Shown here one piece after another: positions 128 through 24,939 of a stretch of 33,242 nucleotides of DNA; positions within the stretch are counted from its first letter, which is position 1; every line of letters starts with the position of its first letter. This DNA is from a virus. Below the pieces are notes generated by a model. That model saw only the letters and a program-made list of their open reading frames with translations, ran no database searches and was not told where the DNA came from. A program made the translations under genes and the position numbers. The DNA lies in IMG/VR virus record IMGVR_UViG_3300044636_000354, positions 1 to 33,242 of that record. One strand, given 5' to 3'.

Positions 128-559
128 ATGGCAGACCTTAGTTTAAAATCACTATTAGTTCCCTCAAAAAGTATTGAGGTAGAGTTTCCTGGCATGCCAG
201 GGTTTAAAATTGACTTAGCTTTTTTAAGTCGTGAAACAATTGTAAATATTCGTAAACGCGCTACAAAAACTACATTTAAAAATCGTCAACCACACGAAGA
301 ATTAAATGATGAATTATTTTTACAGTTATATGTAGAAAATGCAGTAAAAGGTTGGACCGGATTAAAAATCAAATACTTAGAGCAACTGGCACCAGTAGAT
401 GTTAACCACCTAGATCCAGAAGATCAATTAAATTACTCGGCAGAAAACGCCTTGTATCTAATGAAGAATTCAAGCGATTTTGATAGTTTTATTAGTGAAC
501 AGGTTAGTGACCTGGGAAACTTTTCCAAGATCAGCTCCAAGGAGTTGAAAACCAACTAA
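128..559 (+). CDS. Tail assembly chaperone (lambda gpG-like), zero-frame product
   Basis: A 143-residue protein beginning MADLSLKSLLVPSKSIEV, with a central FPGMPGFKIDLAFLSRE stretch and an acidic, Asn-rich C-terminus. This resembles gpG-type chaperones, which bind the tape measure and are absent from the finished tail. The frame is open to a GTG at 95, but that codon lies inside the 88-110 hairpin. The ATG at 128 gives the family-like MADLSLK start, so I chose it; neither start has a clear ribosome site. The key support is position: it lies just before the tape measure and contains an in-frame slippery site (514-520) leading to the -1 frame. Family assignment is from recalled similarity and architecture, not a search. 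Confidence 0.82.
   Translation: MADLSLKSLLVPSKSIEVEFPGMPGFKIDLAFLSRETIVNIRKRATKTTFKNRQPHEELNDELFLQLYVENAVKGWTGLKIKYLEQLAPVDVNHLDPEDQLNYSAENALYLMKNSSDFDSFISEQVSDLGNFSKISSKELKTN
188..201 (+). repeat. Perfect 14-bp palindrome inside gpG
   Basis: CCTGGCATGCCAGG is its own reverse complement (7-bp arms). It lies about 60 bases after the gpG start and encodes PGMPG. It is one of several GC-rich inverted repeats found early in consecutive tail genes of this AT-rich region. Confidence 0.6.
514..548 (+). promoter_or_regulatory. Programmed -1 ribosomal frameshift signal (slippery site plus hairpin)
   Basis: GGGAAAC at 514-520 is read in the gpG frame as G-GGA-AAC, the X-XXY-YYZ form needed for tandem -1 slippage. 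Ten bases downstream a hairpin, TCAGCTCC (531-538) with GGAGTTGA (541-548), offers seven usable base pairs including one G-U around a CAAG loop. After the slip the -1 frame starts at 520 and is open to 903. Lambda gpG/gpGT uses the related heptamer GGGAAAG. Slip site, phase, hairpin and open downstream frame agree; efficiency cannot be judged. Confidence 0.88.
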
Positions 560-903
560 ATAACTACTTTCAAAATCAGCAACTTGGCATGACTAGAGAA
601 AGCTACCTAGAGATGTGTGACATGATGGGTAGCGAACCTGTTGAAAGCGAAATACCTATAGAATATGAAGATTTTCCCCTAGACGTACAACAAGCACTAA
701 GTGTTTATCGTATGTTAAAAGATGAGTGGGAAGGTTTTAATGGATTATATTTAGGTAAAAGCTTTATAGGTCTAACCGAAATATTAGATTATATGGAAGT
801 TGACTTAGCCGATAGAAAGTTAACCGTTCAATTAATAAAATTAATTGACAGTGTTAGAGCAGAATTAATTAACAAACGAGAACAAAAGCCCGCTAGTACA
901 TAA
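520..903 (+). CDS. Frameshift extension (gpT part) of the gpGT tail assembly chaperone
   Basis: Reading from 520 in the -1 frame gives 127 codons before TAA at 901-903. Joined to residues 1-131 of gpG this makes a 258-residue gpGT fusion. An internal ATG at 589 has no ribosome-binding site, so independent initiation is unlikely. The segment contains YEDFPLDVQQALSVYRML and LYLGKSFIGLTEILDYMEVD, is helical and acidic, and looks like the T domain of long-tailed phages. In lambda gpGT the T part recruits tail tube subunits to the gpG-coated tape measure, and the same role is inferred. The last codons overlap the terminator stem. Confidence 0.85.
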   Translation, partial: LFQDQLQGVENQLNNYFQNQQLGMTRESYLEMCDMMGSEPVESEIPIEYEDFPLDVQQALSVYRMLKDEWEGFNGLYLGKSFIGLTEILDYMEVDLADRKLTVQLIKLIDSVRAELINKREQKPAST

Positions 904-1023: not shown

Positions 1024-4000
1024 ATGGCAGGTAATACGATAAATATAGATCTTAATGTACAAGATCAAAATAAATCTATGCAAAGTCGTACTAACGATGC
1101 AAAAAAATTAAATGAGCAACTAGAGCGCGCAAATAATTTATTGCGTGGTACAAAAACTGGTAGTGCTGCTATGCGTCGTGCTGGATTCGATCCTATGACT
1201 GGAGCCGAAGTAGGTGAATATAATCGTGCTCGTGGAGCAGCAGGCGGTGGCGGAGCTAGTGCTAGAGATTTTGCAGATCAAGCTCGTGGATTAGGTGGAT
1301 TAGTTAGACTATACGCTACTTATGCAGCAAATATATTTGCTGTTGCAGCTGCTTTTAATGCACTTCGTGAAGCAATGCAAACAGAAGTAATGATTCGCAG
1401 CTTAGATCAACTAGGTGCAGCTAGTGGTATAGCCATGGGCGGCCTAGCAAAACAATTTGCTGAAGCTAGTGGAGGAGCCATTAGTTTACGCGAATCTATG
1501 GAAGCTACTGCTAAAGCAATAAGTAGTGGTATGACACGCGATCAGTTTATGCAATTAGGTGAAGTAGCTAAAGGAGCAGCACAAGCACTTGGCTTAAATA
1601 TGAGTGATGCCGTTAGCAGACTTACACGTGGTATTACAAAACTAGAGCCGGAATTACTAGACGAATTAGGTTTATTTACTAAAGTAGGTAAAGCTGCAGA
1701 AGATTATGCGCGTAGAGTAGGTAAAACCGAAGCACAACTAACAGACTTTGAACGTCGTCAAGCATTTGCTAATGCTGTGCTTAAAGAAGGTAGAGATAAG
1801 TTTGGAGAAATTGCTCAAGAAGGCAATCCTTATGATAAATTATTGTCCCAATTAAAAAATGTAGCACAAGATATATTAACAGTTGTAAATAATCTTATAG
1901 CGCCTATAGCCAAATTATTAGCCGACAATACTGGTTTAATTGCAGCCGCTATTGGTTTAGCAGCTATTAAAATTACTAAAACAGCACTACCAGCACTAGG
2001 ACAGTGGCGAGAAGGTCTTAAAGCAGCTGCTGAAGATGCGGCGGAAAAAGCCACATTAATTAACAGAAGTTTTCAAGAAGCATTTATAAAGCGACAAGAA
2101 AGCGCACTAGGTATCCCCGCCCTAGAACAAAACCTGCAAAAGGCCAAGCAACAACTTAAAGCTGCACAACAGGAACTACTGGGTGCTACTGGCGGCATGG
2201 ATAAACGTGTTGCTGGCAGTAAGTGGTTTGGTAAAGCAACTAGTGAAGATGTTGGCAATGAAAAAAGTATAGCTAAACTGCAAGAAACTAGTGCAAAATT
2301 TGCACAAAGTGAATCAGCTGACAAGCAAAAAATTGCGGTAGCTATGGATAAAGTAGCTGCTGCACAGAAATTAGTATTAGAACGCAGCCAAGCCTTGGCT
2401 AGTGTAGACGATACTTTACAAGAGGGACTACAAAAACGTGCACGAGTATTGTCAGAACTATGGCAGCGTGAAGAAATAAGAGACCAAGCTCGCAGCAAGG
2501 CCGCTAGACTTCGTATATTAAGTGAAGTTACTGGTGATGTAGAAGGCAAAGGTTTTGTTGGCGGTATTAAAGAACTATACGGCAAAGCACAAGCAGATAA
2601 AGATCTAGGCAGAATAGGTAAATTTGTAACTGTAACTCAAGGTGGGATGATAGCCGCCGCCAGTGCTGTTGGCATACTTGGTGCAAGTTTAGGCAGAGCA
2701 CTTTTAATAGCAGAAGTTATTACAGCTGCATTTTTAGTACTAGATACATTATTTAGTAAAAATAAAAAAGCTGTACAAGATTTTGATAGCGCAATACAAT
2801 CCCTAGAAGAATCAACTAAAACTGCTACTATGGTAGCAGAAAAATACAAAAATGCACTAACTGTTGATAGTATTAATGCATTTGCTAATAGCGTAGAAAA
2901 CATATCAGATAGTCTAGACAGAGTAAATAAAGCATTTGCTAAATCTGACCAGCTAAGCAGTTGGATAGATAAAACAAAAGATTTTTTAGCTGTGTTTTGG
3001 GGTGGCCAAAGATCTAAAAAATTAAGTGAAAATTTAGTAGATAGTGTAACTAGTGCGATTCAGGCAATGCCAATAGGCGAAATGCGTGACTCATTGCAGG
3101 AGCAGCTAGGAAAAGTATTAGATACTACAGATTTATCAGAGGAAGGACTAACAGAAAAGCTAAAAAGTTTAACTACTAGTTTACGCGATAAAGAGTTATT
3201 AGAGCTTAGTCGTGGCGTACAAACTATTATTCAAAATAGTAAAAAAGCACTAAAAGATGCGCAAGCAGTTACACAAGATGTACGTGAAACTGCTAAATCA
3301 ACTGAAACAGCTTTTCAAAATTTAGCTAATGCTACCAGAGATAATAGTCCGCTAACAGTATTTTTAGGTAATACCATTAAACAAGCAGCAGCACTTAAAA
3401 AAGCTTTAGATGATACTGTTGGTGCTCGCGGAGCCATGGACGAATTAACTAAAAAAGGCGGGTTAGAATTCTTAGATCCAGGAACGGCATTAACATTAGC
3501 TCCATTGGTTGAAGAGTATAAAAACTTAACAACGCAATCTGATAACTATAATAAAACTTTAGCAACTAGCGAAACAAGACTAAAACAGCTACAAAAAGAA
3601 TTAGCAAGTGGGCCATTATTTGCTGGTGATGAGCAACAAAAAAGATCCGAGCTAGCACAACTACCACAAATTATAGAGGACGCAAAGTCTAAACTAGGCG
3701 GACTAAATAGTAGAATGGAAGAAATATCTGGTACTGCACGCAGATTAATTCAGGATAGTGTAAGCAAACAAATAGATGCTAGTTTAGCTAATTTTAAATT
3801 ACGACTACAGCAGTTATCTGTTCAACAACAACAAGCTATAGTTGGTACATATAAAGAGCAAACGGTAGAAATAGCAAAACGTCAAACTGATTTAGCTATA
3901 AAAGCTATAGATATTCAAAGTAAGCTATCAGATAGTAATATAAAACTTGTGTTAGGCATAGAGTTATTAAGACTGCAAGTTCAACGAGATGCCGATCTTA

Positions 4001-5724
4001 GAGAACTACAGTTTTATAAAGATGCACAAGATCGAGGTAATCAATTAGAATCAGCTGTAGAGGAAAGACAAACAGAGCTGCAAAAACGTATTTCTAGAAC
4101 TGGTGAAGTAGAAAAGGCGGTTGCGAAACTTGATGTTACTAAATTAAGTGAATTAGCTAAGCAAGATCCAACATTAATGGCTATAGTTCAACAGCTACAG
4201 GGAGCACAACTTGCTAGAACTGGTTTTGCTAATCAAAAGCAGCAAGAATTATTAAAAGGCGCCATTACTCAGGTTGATTTAAGTACTAGAGATATTGTAG
4301 AAAGCTTACAACGTCAAGCTGAAAGTATAAATAGACAACTTAATGAAATAACAGATCAAGGTCCTGGTGGTCAAGGAGCTAGATTTGAACTAACGCAAAG
4401 ATTACGTGATTTAAATCAAGAAATTGAAAGAGAACGATTTAAAGGTGGATTAAAAGCCGCAGGATTAACTCTTGCAGAAGATATAAAAGGAAAAACTGGA
4501 GATCAGCTAGCAGAAGCTCAAAAAAGTTATGATTCATTAGTTAAAAGGCTAACCAATACATATAATGAAAATTTAGCAAAAATAGAATCTGATAGTAGAA
4601 AGGCTCTATTTGAACTAGCTGCTAAAGGTGAAGAAGCTCTACAACAATTAAATCTTACTGAAGTTAATAGATTCCTGGACCAGGTAATTGCAACGGAAGA
4701 AAGAACACAACAACTTGACAAAGCCGGTTTAACACTACTAGAACAAAAACTAAACTTTGAAAGAGAAAATTTTGAGTTTAAAAATAATTCTGGTCAACTA
4801 TCTACAGAAGAATATAGATTAGGTAATTTACGCTTACAACAAATAGGAAATGAATTAGCTTTACAAAAAGCTATATTAGAGGCTACTAGTACTAGAAATA
4901 CCGCTACATTACAACTATTAAGAGATATGGCTGCCGCACCTGGTGCAGATAGTGAGTTTGGCCCAGTGCCTCAAGCGGGACAACCTAGCTTTATAAGCCG
5001 TGGAGCTGCTATTGGTCAAGGATACCAGGATGCTACTACTGCAGCTATTAACTTATCAAATCAGCAATCAACAATCCTAGGATTAAATGTTACATTAACA
5101 GATAGTGCGACAAAATTAGGTGATACGTGGAGTCAGCAATTTAGTAAGATGACGGATGCAATGCTGTCATTTATACAAACTGGTAAGTTTAGTTTCAAAG
5201 ATTTTATGAATAGTATGTTATTAGACTTTACCAGAACTATTTTGCAAATGCAAATGCAAAAATTTGCTACTAGCTTATTTGGTGGAAGTACGGCAGTAGG
5301 AGCAAGTTTAGCTTCATTTTTTGGCTTTAGTGCTATGGGCAATGCTTTTAATAATCAAGGTATTATGAAATATGCCAAAGGAGGAATTTTTACTAATTCA
5401 ATAGTAAATAGTCCTACAGTATTTAAAGCTGCAAAAGGTATAGGTGTAATGGGTGAAGCAGGACCAGAAGCAATTATGCCATTAAAACGCGATAGTAATG
5501 GTAATCTTGGTGTACGTAGTAATCAAGGAAATGTGGATATAGTAGTTAATAATTACAGTCCAGAAAAAGCAACAGCAAAAGAAACAACTGACGCTAGAGG
5601 TAATAGACGAATAGAAGTTACTGTTGGTGACATGGTTGCTGGAGAGTTAAGCCGTACAAACAGTAGTTTACAAAGAACTTTTACTAATACGTATGGCATA
5701 AGTTCAATGGTAGGAAGGAGATAG
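1024..5724 (+). CDS. Tail tape measure protein (lambda gpH-like)
   Basis: A 1566-residue protein that sets tail length and lies inside the tail tube. Hydrophobic segments are at about 91-113, 304-325 and 540-577, with long Gln/Lys/Glu-rich, probably coiled-coil helices between and after them. Near 1365-1421, LGDTWSQQFSKMTDAML and FKDFMNSMLLDFTRTIL match the lambda tape measure C-terminal domain. These are followed by MKYAKGGIFTN (about 1448) and GEAGPEAIMPLKR (about 1477-1489), a hallmark of gpH-type C-termini. Lambda gpH is 853 residues, so a tail much longer than lambda's is expected. It has its own promoter and a GGAG ribosome site. A 7-bp imperfect hairpin lies about 100 bases inside the gene (1126-1147). 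Confidence 0.95.
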   Translation: MAGNTINIDLNVQDQNKSMQSRTNDAKKLNEQLERANNLLRGTKTGSAAMRRAGFDPMTGAEVGEYNRARGAAGGGGASARDFADQARGLGGLVRLYATYAANIFAVAAAFNALREAMQTEVMIRSLDQLGAASGIAMGGLAKQFAEASGGAISLRESMEATAKAISSGMTRDQFMQLGEVAKGAAQALGLNMSDAVSRLTRGITKLEPELLDELGLFTKVGKAAEDYARRVGKTEAQLTDFERRQAFANAVLKEGRDKFGEIAQEGNPYDKLLSQLKNVAQDILTVVNNLIAPIAKLLADNTGLIAAAIGLAAIKITKTALPALGQWREGLKAAAEDAAEKATLINRSFQEAFIKRQESALGIPALEQNLQKAKQQLKAAQQELLGATGGMDKRVAGSKWFGKATSEDVGNEKSIAKLQETSAKFAQSESADKQKIAVAMDKVAAAQKLVLERSQALASVDDTLQEGLQKRARVLSELWQREEIRDQARSKAARLRILSEVTGDVEGKGFVGGIKELYGKAQADKDLGRIGKFVTVTQGGMIAAASAVGILGASLGRALLIAEVITAAFLVLDTLFSKNKKAVQDFDSAIQSLEESTKTATMVAEKYKNALTVDSINAFANSVENISDSLDRVNKAFAKSDQLSSWIDKTKDFLAVFWGGQRSKKLSENLVDSVTSAIQAMPIGEMRDSLQEQLGKVLDTTDLSEEGLTEKLKSLTTSLRDKELLELSRGVQTIIQNSKKALKDAQAVTQDVRETAKSTETAFQNLANATRDNSPLTVFLGNTIKQAAALKKALDDTVGARGAMDELTKKGGLEFLDPGTALTLAPLVEEYKNLTTQSDNYNKTLATSETRLKQLQKELASGPLFAGDEQQKRSELAQLPQIIEDAKSKLGGLNSRMEEISGTARRLIQDSVSKQIDASLANFKLRLQQLSVQQQQAIVGTYKEQTVEIAKRQTDLAIKAIDIQSKLSDSNIKLVLGIELLRLQVQRDADLRELQFYKDAQDRGNQLESAVEERQTELQKRISRTGEVEKAVAKLDVTKLSELAKQDPTLMAIVQQLQGAQLARTGFANQKQQELLKGAITQVDLSTRDIVESLQRQAESINRQLNEITDQGPGGQGARFELTQRLRDLNQEIERERFKGGLKAAGLTLAEDIKGKTGDQLAEAQKSYDSLVKRLTNTYNENLAKIESDSRKALFELAAKGEEALQQLNLTEVNRFLDQVIATEERTQQLDKAGLTLLEQKLNFERENFEFKNNSGQLSTEEYRLGNLRLQQIGNELALQKAILEATSTRNTATLQLLRDMAAAPGADSEFGPVPQAGQPSFISRGAAIGQGYQDATTAAINLSNQQSTILGLNVTLTDSATKLGDTWSQQFSKMTDAMLSFIQTGKFSFKDFMNSMLLDFTRTILQMQMQKFATSLFGGSTAVGASLASFFGFSAMGNAFNNQGIMKYAKGGIFTNSIVNSPTVFKAAKGIGVMGEAGPEAIMPLKRDSNGNLGVRSNQGNVDIVVNNYSPEKATAKETTDARGNRRIEVTVGDMVAGELSRTNSSLQRTFTNTYGISSMVGRR

Positions 5725-14429: not shown

Positions 14430-14764
14430 TGGCTACAACATATGGCCTACAATTATTTGATACTGCAGGATTACTAGAACTGGATTCCAGTTCTAGTATA
14501 AATGCCGGAGTATTTGTTAGAAGTATAACAATACCTTCAACTGGTAACAGTACAATACTTTTTAATGGACAGGCACAAGGATCTTTTGGTACTCTGCCTA
14601 ATCTAGTTAACAGAACAATATTTTGGATAACGTTATTAAATGGAGACCAGGATATTAGACTATATACTAGTCCAGAATCATATCCTGGCATACAATACTC
14701 TCAGTTAAGTAGTTCAGATTTAGGAACAAGGAGAACAAGTACTATACTTGTTTTTGTAAGATAA
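14429..14764 (+). CDS. Small tail protein with a YGLxxFDxxGxxxxD domain
   Basis: 111 residues, starting MATTYGLQLFDTAGLLELDS. The YGL..F(D/N)..G....D pattern recurs at the N-terminus of the next protein (YGLQSFNANEYLLDSD) and again inside it (YGMQMFNAAGLCTFDT, about residue 147). The three are therefore copies of one domain. The remainder is beta-rich, with no membrane segment or catalytic motif. One-base overlaps (TAATG) at both ends imply translational coupling with the two large fibres, so this is probably a fibre accessory or tip protein. I recognise the pattern from phage tails but cannot name the family. A 13-bp-arm palindrome lies 43 bases after the start. Confidence 0.7.
   Translation: MATTYGLQLFDTAGLLELDSSSSINAGVFVRSITIPSTGNSTILFNGQAQGSFGTLPNLVNRTIFWITLLNGDQDIRLYTSPESYPGIQYSQLSSSDLGTRRTSTILVFVR
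14472..14498 (+). repeat. 27-base palindrome with 13-bp arms inside a small tail gene
   Basis: Arms 14472-14484 (TACTAGAACTGGA) and 14486-14498 (TCCAGTTCTAGTA) are perfect reverse complements around a single T. As RNA this allows a 12-bp stem with an ATT loop. It is the longest near-perfect palindrome in coding DNA here and encodes LLELDSSSS. Confidence 0.7.
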
Positions 14765-17700
14765 TGGCATACGGATTACAAAGTTTTAACGCTAACGAAT
14801 ATTTATTAGATAGCGACTACCCTAAACCGTGGTTTCATGCAAAAGCTACACTATATGGGCCTACAACAACAGGCCCATATACTGTTAAGTTTAGAGAAGG
14901 TGACGGTAGCGGTGGCTCTACACAGTTAGAGTTTAGAGCTTATACATTAAATTATACTGCACCTAATCACGGCGTTAATCAAAAAACTGGATTTGCACTA
15001 ATAACCATGCCAAATACTGAAATTTGGTATGCATGCGATAATTATTGGCAATCTGGAATTAATGGTGCTTTTACAATATATGCATTAGTTCCTAGTACAT
15101 ATAATAATCCAGACGGTAGTTATAAAGAAGGCAGTAGTGATATACCAGAAGTATATCTATTTTGTCACGAACATATTAATTTAACTAGTAGCAGTGGTAC
15201 TTATGGTATGCAGATGTTTAATGCTGCAGGCCTATGCACGTTTGATACAGGTCAAAAAATATTTAGACCTGTTGAAGGACAGCTATTGTATCATCCATAT
15301 CCTAGTTTACGTGCAAGTATAGCTACGGCCAATCCTATTATTGATACAGTATTTCCATATGTGCCTGGTGGTACACCTACTAGTTTTAATTTTGGTTATA
15401 CCTTTTTAAAACCAATATTTTATTTACCTAAACTGTATTCTACTATTAGTGCACCAGCAGTTGGTGGCAGAGCTAATCAGTATCAGGTGCAAGTAGGAGA
15501 TCCTTATTTTATTTTTGAGGCAATGTCATTTTATAGACGTACTAGCGCCACACAAGTTGCTATAAAGCCTTATCTTAGAAATATTATATTTGAACAGGAA
15601 TCCATAGGAACATTTCAATATTCTGTAGATGGTGCTGGCCAAGGATTTATTATTATTTCTGATGGTAATAGGTATCCTGTTACTAGCGGCGGAACTTTTC
15701 CTTCTGCTACCTATAATATTACTGCTACTCCTAGTTCACCTAGTGAAGGCACACCGTTTACTATAACTATAAGTACTACTAATGTTCCAGCCGGTACAAC
15801 ATTTAATTATATGATGACAGGTAGTACTCTACTATCTATAGATCTTAATGTACCGCTAACAGGCACAATTACTATTGGTTCAAATGGACAAGCTACAATT
15901 ACTCCTATAACAGCACTAATAGATGAATTTGATGACACAGAGCAAGTTGATTTTGTTCTTAAAGATAGTGTAACAGACGAAATAGTTAAAATATTTACTT
16001 TTACACTTACAAATACTCCAGCTCCAGCTGCTAGCTATGTATTGTCAAAGACTCCAGCTACTGGTGCTATTAGTGAAGGTAGTAGTTTTACTATTAGAGT
16101 AGATACTACATATGTTGCTGTAGGAACTCAATTAGGTTATACTGTTAGCGGATTGGATAGTTTAGATGGTAGTAATGTAGCTACTAGTGGAACATTTCCT
16201 GCCATACAAGGTACATTTCAGAGTGGTTATACAGAGAAAACTTTTTATACTACAGCAGATAATAGAACAGACGGTCAAAAAACTTTTACACTTATACTAA
16301 CCGCAACTGGTCAAACAATACAAATAGTTATTAATGACACTAGCCAGTTTCCTACACAGGGAACTATGGTTAATTTAACAACTGCTACTTCTAGCAGAGA
16401 CGAGGGACAAACAGCTACTGTTAGAGGCGATTGGGATTTCAATCAGTATACTTATGATAATAGGACCTTTAAATTACAAATAGCTAGTGGTAGTACAGCT
16501 AATAGTAGTGATGTAACAATTAGTCCAAGTGGATTTGTAACTCTTACTACCGTTTATAGTGGTGGAGAAATATTATCTATTTTTAGAAATTGGTCAGTTA
16601 GCATAACTAACGACTTAACTACTGAAGCTGGTAGCCCAGAAACATTATTGCTTGAATTAGTAGACGCTAATGGTAGTGTTTATGATACACAAAGTATTAC
16701 AATAAATGATACTAGTCAAACTCCTGCACCTACAGTATCGCTATATAGTGCGAGTCCTAGTGTTGATAGTGGTACTGGTTTAATATACTTAAATGAAACT
16801 ACTACTAAAACTTTAAGCTTAACAGTTACATTAGATTTTACCGTAGCCAATGTACCAGTTTACTGGAAAACAAATGGCAGCGCAAACTTTACTAGTGCAG
16901 ATGTAGATACTAGTTTAAGTGGAACTATTTATACTGTTGTAGGGCAAGTACAAAGAACACTACCAGATATTACAATTAAAACCGATTATACAACTGAAAT
17001 TACAGCAGAAAGTTTTAGTATAGGATTTTATAGTGATAGCAGTTACACTACACTATTATATCAAAGCCCAACAGTAAGTGTTAATGACACTAGCCAAACG
17101 CCAACATTAAATATATCCAATGTTTCAATAACGCCTAATCCAGTAGATGAGGGAAATAGTACTAGTATTGTATTTACTATACAAGATAGCGTAGTTCAAA
17201 ATATTTATTTTAAAATAGTAGGTGGAACCGGTTTTACTTCTGGTGATGTATCTAGCTATACGCCAGCAACGAACACTTTTCAAAGTGCTACCGGGGCTGG
17301 AGCACAACGTACAATTACAGTAACACTAAATGCTGATGCTACAACAGAGGGTACAGAGCAATTTTATATTTATTTCTTTACTGCAGGTACTTGGAATAGT
17401 GGCAGCCCTGTAGACTCTAATCGTTGGGGGCTAATAGGGCCTATAGATGTTAGTGATACTAGTACAACTCCTATAGTTAGAACATTTACCCGCAGCGTTA
17501 GCGAAGTAAATGAGGGTGGCAGTTTTAGTATAACATTTACAACTAACCAGGCTGGTAGCTTTAATTATAGTATTCTTGGGGTAAGTAGTGCAGATATAGG
17601 TGGTGCTAGCTTAACTGGCACGGTTAGTAATGGCACAGTATTAAACTATACAACTAGTTCTGATAGTACAACTGAAGGCGACGAAACCTTTACTATTAGA

Positions 17701-20622
17701 TTAGATTCGTATACTGATGTAAATACTAGTGTAATAATTAGAGATACTAGTTTAACACCAGCACCTAGCGCAGCATCAATATCACTAAATACTCTTGGCC
17801 AAAGTTTAAGTGGTGGTTATATAAGCAGTGGAGTCTATTGGGTAACATGGACCCTAAGCAGCCAAACTACTATAATCTTTAGTACTGAACATGAACTACC
17901 CATAGGTGCAACTGGTGTAGATACCAGTATAGCTGTATATAATAGCAGTGGAATATTGCAGCACACATCTGGAGCAGGTGATGACGATGGTATAGACAAT
18001 CGCGGCGTTAATTATAGTAGTAGATTATCGCTAACACTAGCAGCTGGAACTTACTATGGTGCTATAGGAGTTTACTCTGGATCCTATACTTTTAGTAATT
18101 ATTGGACAGTGTCAGGATTTTCTGCAACAACCCTAAACAATAATATTAGTAATATACGTGTTAGTTTATGGACTGGTACCCCTCAGCCACAATTACAAGG
18201 TGTTAGTGCGCCTAGTAGCGTTAATGAAGGTGATACCGCCACATTTAGTTTCACGCTATTAGATACCACAGACAGAACACTATACTGGAGAATTGTTGGT
18301 ACTAATACTAGTGCCGGTGATTTTACCAGCAGTACTAGTGGCAGTTGGGCTAATCAGTGGCCTAGAAGCTCACAAAATCTTAGTGTTAGTATAGCAGCAG
18401 ATTCTACAACTGAGTCTACTGCAGAAAGCTTTAAGTGGCAACTATCAACTACTAGTAATTTTAGCGATATATTTTATGATACAGCCAGTTCAGCAACTAG
18501 TACAACTATAAATGATACCAGTCAAACACCAGTACCTTCCTGGAGTTTTGGTACACCACCTGCAGAAATACATGAAGGCGTTACATATGGTATAGCCTTT
18601 TTTGCAAGTAATTGGTCTGGAAATACAGCATACTTTTACTTAGTTGGTCCTAGCAGTGGTACAAATGCTAGTGGTGAAGTTAGCTTACTAACTAGCAGCA
18701 CGTATGTTAATTCTAACTATATAGATGTGCAAGTAAACTTTACAGCAACACAAGACTATAACACAGAAGCTGACGAATTTTTTAGAATAGAAGCTAGAAA
18801 CAGTGCAGGAACAGTTTTGGCTACTAGTAGTAATATTAAAATTATTGCTAAAGGTGCACCTAATTATTACTTTGGAGCTATTCCAGATCCAATGAATGAG
18901 GGCACCACTTATAGCGTAACATTTACAGCTGAAAATATTAGAAACACTACTTTTACGTTTCAAACAATAGCTCCTACAAGCGGAACAAATGCTAGTGCTG
19001 AGGTAAGTATTAGCCCCTCAAGCTGGACTTCATCTAGTAGCAGCGATAGTAGTAGCGTTACGCTTAGTATTACACCAACAGCAGATGGAGTAATAGAATT
19101 AGACGAATATTTTAGATTTGGTGCCTATATTGGTGGGTCACTTGCCACAGGCACAGGAAATATTAGAATACCAGGAGATGGAGCAGCACCTAGTGGAACA
19201 TTTAGTGTTAGCCCTAGTACCCATACTGGTGTAGCAAATATTTATGGTGATTGGTCTATTAGCGGTAATCCTACGCCGTCTGTAAGAATTGACAGCGATC
19301 AAGGCTATCAGGCAACTAGCTTAGGTACACAAGGAAGCAGTTTATTAGAAACTAACGTAGCTCAAACTACTACTTATACACTTACAGCAACTAATGCATT
19401 TGGTACACTTACTATTAATAGTACTTCAACAGTACCAGGTGTTAGCGCTACCCTAAGTGCAAGTCCTAGTACAATTACTGCTGGTCAATCTAGTACACTA
19501 AGCTATACAACTACAAATGCTACATATGCAAACATTAATAATGGTGTAGGCGGGATTACTGTAGGAAGTGGCAGTGTTGTTGTATATCCTACTTCAACTA
19601 CAACTTATACCCTTAGTGCTTTTAATGCTCAAAATAGTGGCAGCGCTCAAGCAACGGTTACAGTAAATCCTGCTAGTGGTACCTACTTAAGTCAATACTG
19701 TAGTGGTTATACACTGTACTATCGCTATGCTAATGGCTCTGGTGGATATTATGATCAGGTTCAGGAATACAACAGCCCAACTTGTGGATATGTAGCACCT
19801 CCACCTCCTCCGCCGCCACCTCCACCTCCTCCGCCACCTCCACCTGCGCTAAGTACTAGTAATTCGTATGTAAGCCCAGCTAACCCAACTAGTCAATATT
19901 TTAGTATTATAGTAGGATTAGATCAGCCAGCAACTACAACAGTATATTTAAATGCTAGTATTACATTTAGAAATAGTGGCGGCGGTATAACTGCAGGTCC
20001 AAATAATGTGTCTAATATTGGACAAATTAATCCAGGATCTCAGACGTTTACCTATACTGCAAATGGTGCAGATGGTTGGACAAATGCAGATAGTACTGGT
20101 TGGTATAACCGTATTGATTGGACTTCTAATGAGGCACCAGGTACGGCAACAACAACTTTTTACTACTATTGGGCACCACCTCCTCCACCACCTCCACCAC
20201 CTCCTCCAGCACCACCACCGCCAGCTCCACCACCCCCTCCACCGCCTCCTCCACCACCTCCACCCCCACCTCCGCCACCTGCAAGTGGCCCAGTATATGT
20301 AAGCTATAATATTACTGGAGGCGATAACGCTACTAATAATACTGTTAATGTAAGTCTATTTTTAGTAGCTGGACAAACGTTGCAGGCAGGTACTGGACCA
20401 ACTGGTGCAAGCTGGGCTCCTGGTATAGTGTGGAATGGTACTGATAGTTATATAAGACTAGTAAACGGTTCTGGTACTACTGTTATTGTTGATGATGACG
20501 CCGCTGGTGGCTTAGCATCTTATTTTTCTTATAGTGTGTCAAGTACTGGTAATTATACACTAAAATTTGGTGCATATAATAATAGTAATGCTAGCGGTAC
20601 AGGAGCATATAGAATCACTTAA
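14764..20622 (+). CDS. Giant modular adhesin with Calx-beta-like repeats and proline tracts
   Basis: 1952 residues. Order: YGLQSFNANEYLLDSD domain (3-20), a second copy YGMQMFNAAGLCTFD (147-168), then about nine Calx-beta-like repeats (about 316-1000 and 1139-1474). The repeats typically begin with xNEGxxxxFxxT and end in NDTSQTP. A pre-peptidase C-terminal-like domain interrupts them (about 1003-1138). Then come two Ig-like domains (about 1476-1637), a two-cysteine segment with SQYCSGYTLYYRYANGSGG and SPTCGY (1639-1680), a run of 16 prolines, a beta domain (about 1695-1804), a 35-residue Pro/Ala tract, and a final pre-peptidase-like domain with VDDDAAGG (1840-1952). Probably a long receptor-binding fibre; calcium binding and the receptor are unproven. 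Starts one base inside the previous stop. No signal peptide. Confidence 0.82.
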   Translation: MAYGLQSFNANEYLLDSDYPKPWFHAKATLYGPTTTGPYTVKFREGDGSGGSTQLEFRAYTLNYTAPNHGVNQKTGFALITMPNTEIWYACDNYWQSGINGAFTIYALVPSTYNNPDGSYKEGSSDIPEVYLFCHEHINLTSSSGTYGMQMFNAAGLCTFDTGQKIFRPVEGQLLYHPYPSLRASIATANPIIDTVFPYVPGGTPTSFNFGYTFLKPIFYLPKLYSTISAPAVGGRANQYQVQVGDPYFIFEAMSFYRRTSATQVAIKPYLRNIIFEQESIGTFQYSVDGAGQGFIIISDGNRYPVTSGGTFPSATYNITATPSSPSEGTPFTITISTTNVPAGTTFNYMMTGSTLLSIDLNVPLTGTITIGSNGQATITPITALIDEFDDTEQVDFVLKDSVTDEIVKIFTFTLTNTPAPAASYVLSKTPATGAISEGSSFTIRVDTTYVAVGTQLGYTVSGLDSLDGSNVATSGTFPAIQGTFQSGYTEKTFYTTADNRTDGQKTFTLILTATGQTIQIVINDTSQFPTQGTMVNLTTATSSRDEGQTATVRGDWDFNQYTYDNRTFKLQIASGSTANSSDVTISPSGFVTLTTVYSGGEILSIFRNWSVSITNDLTTEAGSPETLLLELVDANGSVYDTQSITINDTSQTPAPTVSLYSASPSVDSGTGLIYLNETTTKTLSLTVTLDFTVANVPVYWKTNGSANFTSADVDTSLSGTIYTVVGQVQRTLPDITIKTDYTTEITAESFSIGFYSDSSYTTLLYQSPTVSVNDTSQTPTLNISNVSITPNPVDEGNSTSIVFTIQDSVVQNIYFKIVGGTGFTSGDVSSYTPATNTFQSATGAGAQRTITVTLNADATTEGTEQFYIYFFTAGTWNSGSPVDSNRWGLIGPIDVSDTSTTPIVRTFTRSVSEVNEGGSFSITFTTNQAGSFNYSILGVSSADIGGASLTGTVSNGTVLNYTTSSDSTTEGDETFTIRLDSYTDVNTSVIIRDTSLTPAPSAASISLNTLGQSLSGGYISSGVYWVTWTLSSQTTIIFSTEHELPIGATGVDTSIAVYNSSGILQHTSGAGDDDGIDNRGVNYSSRLSLTLAAGTYYGAIGVYSGSYTFSNYWTVSGFSATTLNNNISNIRVSLWTGTPQPQLQGVSAPSSVNEGDTATFSFTLLDTTDRTLYWRIVGTNTSAGDFTSSTSGSWANQWPRSSQNLSVSIAADSTTESTAESFKWQLSTTSNFSDIFYDTASSATSTTINDTSQTPVPSWSFGTPPAEIHEGVTYGIAFFASNWSGNTAYFYLVGPSSGTNASGEVSLLTSSTYVNSNYIDVQVNFTATQDYNTEADEFFRIEARNSAGTVLATSSNIKIIAKGAPNYYFGAIPDPMNEGTTYSVTFTAENIRNTTFTFQTIAPTSGTNASAEVSISPSSWTSSSSSDSSSVTLSITPTADGVIELDEYFRFGAYIGGSLATGTGNIRIPGDGAAPSGTFSVSPSTHTGVANIYGDWSISGNPTPSVRIDSDQGYQATSLGTQGSSLLETNVAQTTTYTLTATNAFGTLTINSTSTVPGVSATLSASPSTITAGQSSTLSYTTTNATYANINNGVGGITVGSGSVVVYPTSTTTYTLSAFNAQNSGSAQATVTVNPASGTYLSQYCSGYTLYYRYANGSGGYYDQVQEYNSPTCGYVAPPPPPPPPPPPPPPPPALSTSNSYVSPANPTSQYFSIIVGLDQPATTTVYLNASITFRNSGGGITAGPNNVSNIGQINPGSQTFTYTANGADGWTNADSTGWYNRIDWTSNEAPGTATTTFYYYWAPPPPPPPPPPPAPPPPAPPPPPPPPPPPPPPPPPPASGPVYVSYNITGGDNATNNTVNVSLFLVAGQTLQAGTGPTGASWAPGIVWNGTDSYIRLVNGSGTTVIVDDDAAGGLASYFSYSVSSTGNYTLKFGAYNNSNASGTGAYRIT
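14852..14881 (+). repeat. 11-bp inverted repeat early in the giant adhesin gene
   Basis: TATATGGGCCT (14852-14862) and AGGCCCATATA (14871-14881) are perfect reverse complements across an eight-base ACAACAAC loop, 88 bases after the start. A smaller hairpin, AAACC-GT-GGTTT, precedes it at 14824-14835. Confidence 0.65.
19798..19845 (+). repeat. Polyproline tract 1 (16 codons)
   Basis: Forty-eight bases made only of CCN proline codons, mainly CCT, CCA and CCG mixed, directly after the two-cysteine segment. The result is strongly C/T-rich on this strand. The codon mixture makes simple slippage less likely than in a pure repeat. Translation of such a run normally needs elongation factor P. Confidence 0.9.
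20176..20280 (+). repeat. Polyproline tract 2 (35 codons, two alanine interruptions)
   Basis: Proline blocks of 11, 4 and 18 codons separated by single GCA/GCT alanines, immediately before the C-terminal domain. It is probably a stiff extended linker holding that domain away from the shaft. An overlapping Leu/His-rich reading frame at 20006-20302 is a by-product of this repeat. Confidence 0.9.
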
Positions 20623-23745: not shown

Positions 23746-24939
23746 ATGTCAAAAATTAGATTAAAGCGTAGTGGTACTAGTGGTGCGCAACCAAATCCCA
23801 CAAGCTTAGATTATGGTGAAATTACCCTAAACTATGCTGATAGTACCATCTACTTTAGAAAACCAGATAATACACTGGGTAGTATAACTACTGGTACTGG
23901 TGGGGGTAGTGGTGGTAGCAGCGGAGCTGTAGCACTTAGATCAGCAACAACTGTTAGTGTTACTTCTCAGCAATCTACCTTTACAGTCACTGGTGGTTAT
24001 ACTGTAGGTGCTATAGATGTTTTTAGAAACGGTGTTAAACTACTACCTAGCTTAGATTTTACAGCTACAAATGAAACTAGTGTTGTACTAGGTGTACCTG
24101 CAGAAAATGGTGATGTAGTAGAAATACTGGCTTACAAAGTAGAAAGTTTAGTTTCAACAGTTGCTAGAAGTGTTACTACTGTAGTAGCAACTAGCAATCA
24201 AACAGTATTTACTGCCACAGGCGGATATACTGTAGGTTATGTAGATGTATACTATAATGGCGTAAGATTAGTAGAAACTACCGATTTTACAGCTACAAAT
24301 GGATCAACAATTACCCTACTAGATCCTGCTATAGCAGCAGACATAGTTGAAATAGTAGCGCATACTGTACATGGTTTAGCAGATGGTTATACCACTACAC
24401 AAGCAGACGCTAGATTTCAGCTAACCACAGAAAAAGGTGCAGCAAATGGCTACGCCAGCTTAGACAGCAGTGGCCTAGTACCTAGCACACAACTACCTAG
24501 TTATGTAGATGATGTGTTGGAGTATGCAAACCTAGCTGCCATGCCAGCTAGTGGTACAGCAGGAAAAATTTATGTTGCCATAGACACTGGCAAAACTTAT
24601 CGCTGGTCAGGCAGTGTGTATGTAGAAATTAGTGCAAGTCCTGGTAGTACAGACAGTGTTGCCGAAGGTTCAACAAATCTCTACTATACCACAGCCAGAG
24701 CTAACGCAGACTTTGACACAAGACTGGCCACCAAGAATACAAATAACTTAGCCGAAGGTACCAATCTCTACTACACAGACAGCCGTGCTAGAAGTGCGCT
24801 AAGTTTTCAAGCAGGTAGTGGCGCCTACGATAGTAGCACTGGTGTAGTTACCATACCTACAAATAATACACAATTAACAAACGGTGCTAATTATATAACC
24901 ATTGATTCTGCAATTGCCATGGCAATTGCTCTAGGATAA
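23746..24939 (+). CDS. Modular tail fibre with duplicated NGVKL domains
   Basis: 397 residues. The N-terminus KIRLKRSGTSGAQPNPTSLD resembles the IKRSS start of the preceding fibre. A Gly/Ser linker (TGGGSGGSSG) leads to two tandem copies of one domain: TFTVTGGYTVGAIDVFRNGV (about 78-97) and VFTATGGYTVGYVDVYYNGV (about 151-170). Next comes LPSYVDDVLEYANLAAMP...GKIYVAIDTGKTYRWSG, shared with the 28179 gene, then two copies of a EGSTNLYYTTARAN/EGTNLYYTDSRAR repeat common in phage fibres. It ends SAIAMAIALG. Probably a receptor-binding or joint fibre. Confidence 0.75.
   Translation: MSKIRLKRSGTSGAQPNPTSLDYGEITLNYADSTIYFRKPDNTLGSITTGTGGGSGGSSGAVALRSATTVSVTSQQSTFTVTGGYTVGAIDVFRNGVKLLPSLDFTATNETSVVLGVPAENGDVVEILAYKVESLVSTVARSVTTVVATSNQTVFTATGGYTVGYVDVYYNGVRLVETTDFTATNGSTITLLDPAIAADIVEIVAHTVHGLADGYTTTQADARFQLTTEKGAANGYASLDSSGLVPSTQLPSYVDDVLEYANLAAMPASGTAGKIYVAIDTGKTYRWSGSVYVEISASPGSTDSVAEGSTNLYYTTARANADFDTRLATKNTNNLAEGTNLYYTDSRARSALSFQAGSGAYDSSTGVVTIPTNNTQLTNGANYITIDSAIAMAIALG
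24910..24929 (+). repeat. Perfect 20-bp palindrome at the end of a fibre gene
   Basis: GCAATTGCCATGGCAATTGC is fully self-complementary. It encodes the C-terminal AIAMAIA, ending about ten bases before the stop and 20 before the next start. Confidence 0.75.

Follow-up and report, generated by a model that had tools for sequence, protein, structure and literature searches.

In phage lambda, gpG and gpGT are encoded by two overlapping ORFs upstream of the tape measure gene, with an in-phase G_GGA_AAN heptamer close to the end of the first of them and a C-terminal extension in the -1 frame. The same layout was found in the window (the whole 33,242-nucleotide stretch of viral DNA analyzed here, IMG/VR record IMGVR_UViG_3300044636_000354), except that the lambda heptamer is GGGAAAG and the last base of the window's heptamer is C, not G. 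For the archaeal virus HCTV-1, the accessible text of PMC5009743 describes a G-T frameshift at the same G_GGA_AAC in the same gene pair; this virus differs in having an archaeal host, and was likened to the window by that description, not by sequence. Among named homologues, those closest to the two halves were the tape measure chaperones of T5-like phages (Demerecviridae; T5.143 and T5.142 in the record notes), detected by tblastn with E values of 2e-23 and 1e-7. In these phages the second half lay in the +1 frame, not in the -1 frame of the window, with TTT CGN at the junction. We put the probability that the window gene uses a lambda gpG/gpGT-type -1 frameshift, giving a G chaperone and a G-T fusion from one gene, at about 0.93. 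The window cassette belongs to the gpG/gpGT class and is one more case of a textbook mechanism; the interesting part is the apparent switch of slip direction in the T5-like branch, not the cassette itself.

Reading frames, gene context and predicted structures in the window

The features of the chaperone region were as follows.

128..559, + strand: G half, zero-frame tail assembly chaperone ORF, 143 aa (phrog_313 match; relatives align from the same Met)
500..504, + strand: Shine-Dalgarno-like CAGGT (AGGT at 501-504), candidate stimulator (Gln codon bias, duplex-energy dip)
514..520, + strand: slippery heptamer G_GGA_AAC (in phase, conserved)
520..903, + strand: T half, -1 frame after the slip, 127 aa (phrog_3914 match, pN/pS, confident model)
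531..548, + strand: 7-bp stem-loop, possible stimulator in the window phage and near kin only (-9.1 kcal/mol for 525-555)
589..591, + strand: internal ATG, start of the T half if annotated as a separate gene (no Shine-Dalgarno)
1024..5724, + strand: tail tape measure protein gene, the expected chaperone client (Tape_meas_lam_C E 2.5e-9; phrog_3779 E 7.9e-43)

The zero-frame ORF started at ATG128 and stopped at TAA559. Its 512-523 stretch was read as CTG (512-514), GGA (515-517), AAC (518-520) and TTT, so that G_GGA_AAC at 514-520 was in phase for tandem -1 slippage when read from the ATG128 frame, as the earlier note had claimed. The -1 frame carried TGA at 508-510 and was open from 511 to TAA 901-903, which bore out the claim of an open frame over 520-903; the two ORFs, 128-559 and 511-903, overlapped by 49 bases. 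GGGAAAC was the sole in-phase XXXYYYZ heptamer in this overlap. Elsewhere, 30 in-phase heptamers of this form were counted in the 10,501 codons of the 19 other window ORFs (0.04 expected per 13 codons), none of them GGGAAAC. The predicted fusion had 131 + 127 = 258 residues, the length given in the earlier note.

With this geometry, most ribosomes would stay in the zero frame as far as TAA 559, yielding the 143-residue G chaperone. A minority would slip back by one base, the P- and A-site tRNAs on GGA AAC re-pairing on GGG AAA, and would continue in the -1 frame through 520-903 to give a fused G-T product of 258 residues. If the roles are as in lambda, the tape measure protein would be coated by G and the tail tube protein brought in by T, and slip efficiency would set the ratio of G to G-T; AGGT 501-504 or a local stem may stimulate the slip. 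Arrangement, homology and the conservation of both the slip codons and the -1 frame 5' of ATG 589 were computed; slippage itself, its level and the roles of G and T are what we infer. According to the accessible text of PMC5009743, A_AAA_AAG slips far more than A_AAA_AAC in E. coli. Given this preference for AAG, the AAC heptamer is perhaps weak, unless the host of the window phage, whichever it is, differs.

Profile matches agreed with the proposed gpGT identity. Both halves matched tail assembly chaperone families, the G half phrog_313 (E 1.3e-17) and the T half phrog_3914 (E 3.4e-12). The lambda gpG family was listed for neither half in the Pfam and PHROG searches, and neither half had a Pfam match above the cut-off. 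Downstream of the tape measure gene, PHROG matches were obtained for a virion structural protein, a minor tail protein and a J-like protein.

The model of the G half had a pLDDT of 82.5. When it was compared with 997 solved chains, the best match was YqbN (3klu; Z 5.2, rmsd 4.8, 91 residues aligned), followed by the HK97 tail assembly chaperone (2ob9; Z 4.3, rmsd 6.4, 93 aligned) and a third chain at Z 2.5; structural matches at Z 4-5 are weak by the comparison tool's own note. The four best predicted viral structures (BFVD) were from phages Shivani, JSF10, VspSw_1 and PM135 (E 2.4e-13 to 1.5e-10), and three of the four carried the name tape measure chaperone; the best was a 277-residue tape measure chaperone of the T5-like phage Shivani (E 2.4e-13). 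The T half was modelled confidently as a helical protein (mean pLDDT 94.1), and its first helix, residues 2-22, was encoded upstream of ATG 589. Searches of the PDB by sequence gave best E values of 0.87 and 0.83 for the two halves, and the search by fold with the T half gave a best Foldseek E of 3.6 and a best Z of 3.0.

Several further elements were seen in the window. In the gap from the T half to the tape measure gene, a terminator-like stem at 888-920 (GCCCGCT...AGCGGGC, then T6; -19.4 kcal/mol for 880-925) was followed at 940-968 by a promoter-like TTGACA-17-TATACT, which matched the consensus at 11 of 12 positions and was preceded by TG; transcription of the tape measure gene may be separate from that of the chaperone gene. 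A promoter scan of the window returned 3 promoter-like sites, compared to 4.3 in shuffles, and its listing did not contain the 888-920 stem. In phage KEY, a terminator is annotated at the place matching this stem. A perfect 9-bp stem, GAGACCGGT/ACCGGTCTC, lay just 5' of the chaperone gene at 88-110 (-17.6 kcal/mol for 80-120) and had no T run. An ORF of 1952 residues at 14764-20622, in which repeats and long runs of proline were seen (translation read by eye), perhaps encodes a tail-associated adhesin.

Slip-site types and codon choice among relatives

Relatives were collected by seven IMG/VR scans with protein patterns, which as printed exclude the slip site, and from twelve T5-like phage records; four of the seven scans returned the best 80 of 552, 205, 473 and 190 relatives. 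The collection comprised 422 loci including the window, and 230 distinct loci after removal of identical junction regions; L079, in which the first half was absent, was excluded, as were L056 and L260, in which the second half or a stop was absent. The contig of one relative, L263, is also 33,242 bases long, but carries its chaperone around base 24,000 on the opposite strand and so represents a different virus from the window. L054 and L093 were counted within the 230, but look like damaged records. All locus counts refer to related sequences, not to independent events. In bacterial and archaeal genomes, 60 stretches fitted a pattern and none was a relative.

The second half lay in the -1 frame in 186 of the 230 distinct loci, and 183 of these 186 had an in-phase heptamer at the junction: GGGAAAC in 126, AAATTTY (AAATTTC or AAATTTT) in 55, AAAAAAC in one (L084) and GGGAAAG in one (L405). 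The last of these is the lambda heptamer, read as Gly then Lys AAG. In the AAATTTY loci the heptamer was placed one codon further downstream, and the register of the fused product was unchanged. We know of no description of the A_AAT_TTY type, or of a conserved upstream AGGT, for lambda. The AAC codon in the A site, pointed out earlier as a departure from lambda's GGGAAAG, does differ in its last base; however, it was not peculiar to the window phage, being present at 126 of 127 Gly-type sites.

No canonical heptamer was found in three of the 186 -1 loci, meaning either that the tandem site is not strictly required or that these records contain errors. Their junctions read TCA CTT TTC AAC (L055:3370-3399), TCA GCT TTT ACG (L270:1870-1908; the separate contig L274 shows the identical junction) and TCG AAT TTT TCG (L318:1870-1905). 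All three keep the T run, and a single Phe tRNA might slip there. The remaining loci among the 230 were mostly T5-like and in the +1 frame. One member of the window's own clade, L054 (3001-3649), had a G half that skipped from residue 82 to the slip region, which is an internal deletion or a misassembly.

The -1 loci were classed by protein alone, since selecting them by GGGAAAC would have been circular for codon conservation. When Gly preceded the junction Asn, the codons were GGA and AAC in 126 of 126 loci, and the codon before Gly ended in G in all 127 Gly-type loci; the residue before Gly was Leu in all 107 Gly-type loci of the first classification. In the non-Gly loci, the junction Asn was AAT in 56 of 57 (the exception was L084, with A_AAA_AAC). 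Of 56 codons directly preceding AAT, 55 ended in A, and the codon one further upstream could end in any base. Thus, the codon used for the same amino acid tracked the heptamer type, AAC after Gly and AAT otherwise. The Fisher value for this codon choice is not a probability, the sequences being related.

The 159 complete rows were thinned to 133 for a quick tree, on which the five site types required 12 changes; the tool gave a warning that long branches come together at its base. At least two changes for GGGAAAC and at least three for AAATTTY were forced by branches supported at 95 or more, showing that the heptamer was exchanged more than once in the -1 clade. On this tree, G_GGA_AAC and A_AAU_UUY are sites one codon apart that replaced each other more than once within that clade.

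Start of the second half and candidate stimulators

The earlier note had argued that the second half, if annotated separately from ATG 589, would lack a ribosome site. The duplex energy at 589 was +1.2, whereas 15 of 17 other tested window gene starts ranged from -3.3 to -13.2, and the site was rightly called missing; the other two also lacked one. However, the argument was weak because the start of the first half was poor as well: ATG128 had a duplex energy of -1.8, no better than random positions (mean -1.87), and the means over 106 relatives were -1.04 at the ATG589 codon and -0.26 at the first half's start. The case is carried instead by selection. Among 15 close relatives, compared ungapped, T-frame codons 14-22, which run from the zero-frame stop to ATG 589, had a pN/pS of 0.135 and no stops, while the other two frames of this stretch had values of 1.14 and 1.25, with stops. 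For T-frame codons 23-44, pN/pS was 0.615 compared to 1.0 and 1.2 in the other frames, in an ungapped comparison in which indels inflate the values. These ratios suggest that the second half is read from the slip site and is under -1-frame-specific selection before ATG 589. Translation of the T half as a separate protein from ATG 589, perhaps coupled to the first ORF and with GGGAAAC only incidental, is unlikely on this evidence. It would account for the ATG kept at the 589 codon in 87 of the 106 GGGAAAC loci, and the poor start of the first half makes the missing ribosome site at 589 less than decisive. However, the stretch before ATG 589 shows protein-level selection in the -1 frame only and encodes a confidently predicted helix, and 19 of the 106 loci lack the ATG (two of these have GTG) while the slip codons are fixed. 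Additional initiation at ATG 589 alongside frameshifting is possible.

Slippage of RNA polymerase in the junction runs, by which the -1 frame would be reached through an altered mRNA, is very unlikely. Runs of G3, A3 and T4 are present at 514-524. However, runs of this type are shorter than those known for polymerase slippage, and the relatives carry heptamers of differing base make-up in one reading phase, which the ribosome needs and the polymerase does not. Adjacent ORFs in different frames often are broken genes or sequencing errors; here, the same offset in 186 distinct loci, together with a dedicated codon pattern, in effect refutes this explanation and leaves it a negligible chance. The gpGT-type -1 frameshift proposed in the earlier note is supported by the protein families, the neighboring tape measure gene, the 186 loci, the slip codons and the selection on the -1 frame.

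The hairpin by which the cassette had been called complete was present at 531-548, with a four-base loop and beginning ten bases past the heptamer, but was not supported by relatives. Of 91 distinct sequences downstream of the heptamer, only 6 formed all six inner pairs, which does not support a role as a conserved stimulator. In the fold of 521-600 the stem lost to another structure (z -1.41, 18 of 200 shuffles as good). The paired fraction in relatives was 0.55, compared to 0.45 for the best slid register, with the structure taken from the window and the comparison favoring it. In 31 GGGAAAC rows, 50-base folds beginning 0-7 bases past the heptamer had mean z values of -1.34 to -1.5; windows 40-80 bases downstream gave -0.95 to -1.36 and most other places 0.4 to -0.8. 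Local structure may help slipping in some loci, without a common stem. No family was found in Rfam at the gathering threshold.

In the A_AAT_TTY loci, a second stem lying 45-90 bases downstream (mean z of -2.47 over 24 rows) was rejected, as RNAalifold gave no consensus. Its covariation score of 0.085 was matched by 21 of 500 shuffles, and one slid version reached 0.102; in the alignment of 41 rows, L282, L288, L303 and L306 were cut 42 bases early and counted as gaps. This stem appears to be a side effect of the protein motif YFQN...YFE.

The AGGT at 501-504 lies nine bases 5' of the slip site and is formed by the Gln codon 500-502 and the codon after it. This Gln was encoded by CAG in 88% of the 112 sequences with Gln, while in the five other Gln columns that contained 20 or more sequences CAG made up 0, 4, 27, 33 and 43%. 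Pairing of AGGT with the 16S 3' end had a mean duplex energy of about -3.3 in GGGAAAC loci and no lower than -1.7 at the same position in AAATTTY loci; elsewhere in the chaperone gene it fell as low as -4.6. An internal Shine-Dalgarno stimulates frameshifting in E. coli dnaX. AGGT 501-504 is a candidate stimulator that the codon bias supports better than the relatives support the hairpin.

The T5-like branch

In the tree, the T5-like rows formed one side of a branch with a support of 99. Of the 44 distinct +1 loci, 42 had zero-frame TTT CGN at the junction (36 CGT, 6 CGA); many of the 42 are near-identical coliphages, and the set held 15 different leader sequences. The T5-like loci were L085-L092, L094-L096, L337-L365 and L416-L419. 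The two +1 loci without TTT CGN were L054, the window-clade member with the internal deletion, and L093 (Aeromonas phage AhSzq-1), in which the chaperone region had broken frames and no annotated gene. At the other Phe codons of the T5-like chaperone genes, TTC was used in 113 of 259. A second-frame stop stood five bases 5' of TTT in 33 of 42 loci. From the first stop to the usual annotated start, the +1 frame had a pN/pS of 0.45 and the other two frames had values of 1.31 and 1.49, in 11 of the 42 loci picked for the absence of gaps. L352, which we take to be phage T5, had ACT TTT CGT at its junction. The T5-like second half is probably reached by a +1 frameshift at TTT CGN.

Annotation of these genes varied. 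The two halves were annotated as separate genes in 11 of 12 T5-like records, and AhSzq-1 had neither annotated. In phages KEY and AAS21, the annotated start of the second half was a TTG upstream of the junction. The GenBank record of phage Shivani joins both ORFs; the Shivani paper does not mention the join. For the Sugarland tape measure chaperone, "similar to T5", PMC6256483 states that no frameshift signal was predicted. A +1 shift in T5 was not found in open papers, whose search could not take "+1".

The accessible text of PMC5009743 describes UUU_Ynn as especially +1-prone in bacteria and gives the influenza PA-X site as UCC_UUU_CGU. Influenza A PA-X is like the T5-like relatives only, in that a zero-frame UUU_CGN is followed by a second frame at +1; it differs as an unrelated protein of a eukaryotic virus, and the likeness is one of motif.

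It is likely that the slip direction switched within one chaperone family, from or to +1 at UUU_CGN in the T5-like phages and -1 at G_GGA_AAC or A_AAU_UUY in the window's clade. Two Vibrio T5-like phages (L090 and L091) had the junction AACTTTCGA (AACTTT-CGA), and members of the window's clade had AACTTTTCGA. Comparison of the two suggests that one T more or less in the T run would convert a requirement for -1 into one for +1, or the reverse.

The family offers a natural experiment, in which the slip site was exchanged and, in the T5 branch, apparently the direction too, while the fused product was kept. If the T5 reading is true, a frameshift signal is present in a classic model phage that was reported to lack one, and most T5-like records, which annotate the second half separately, need mending.
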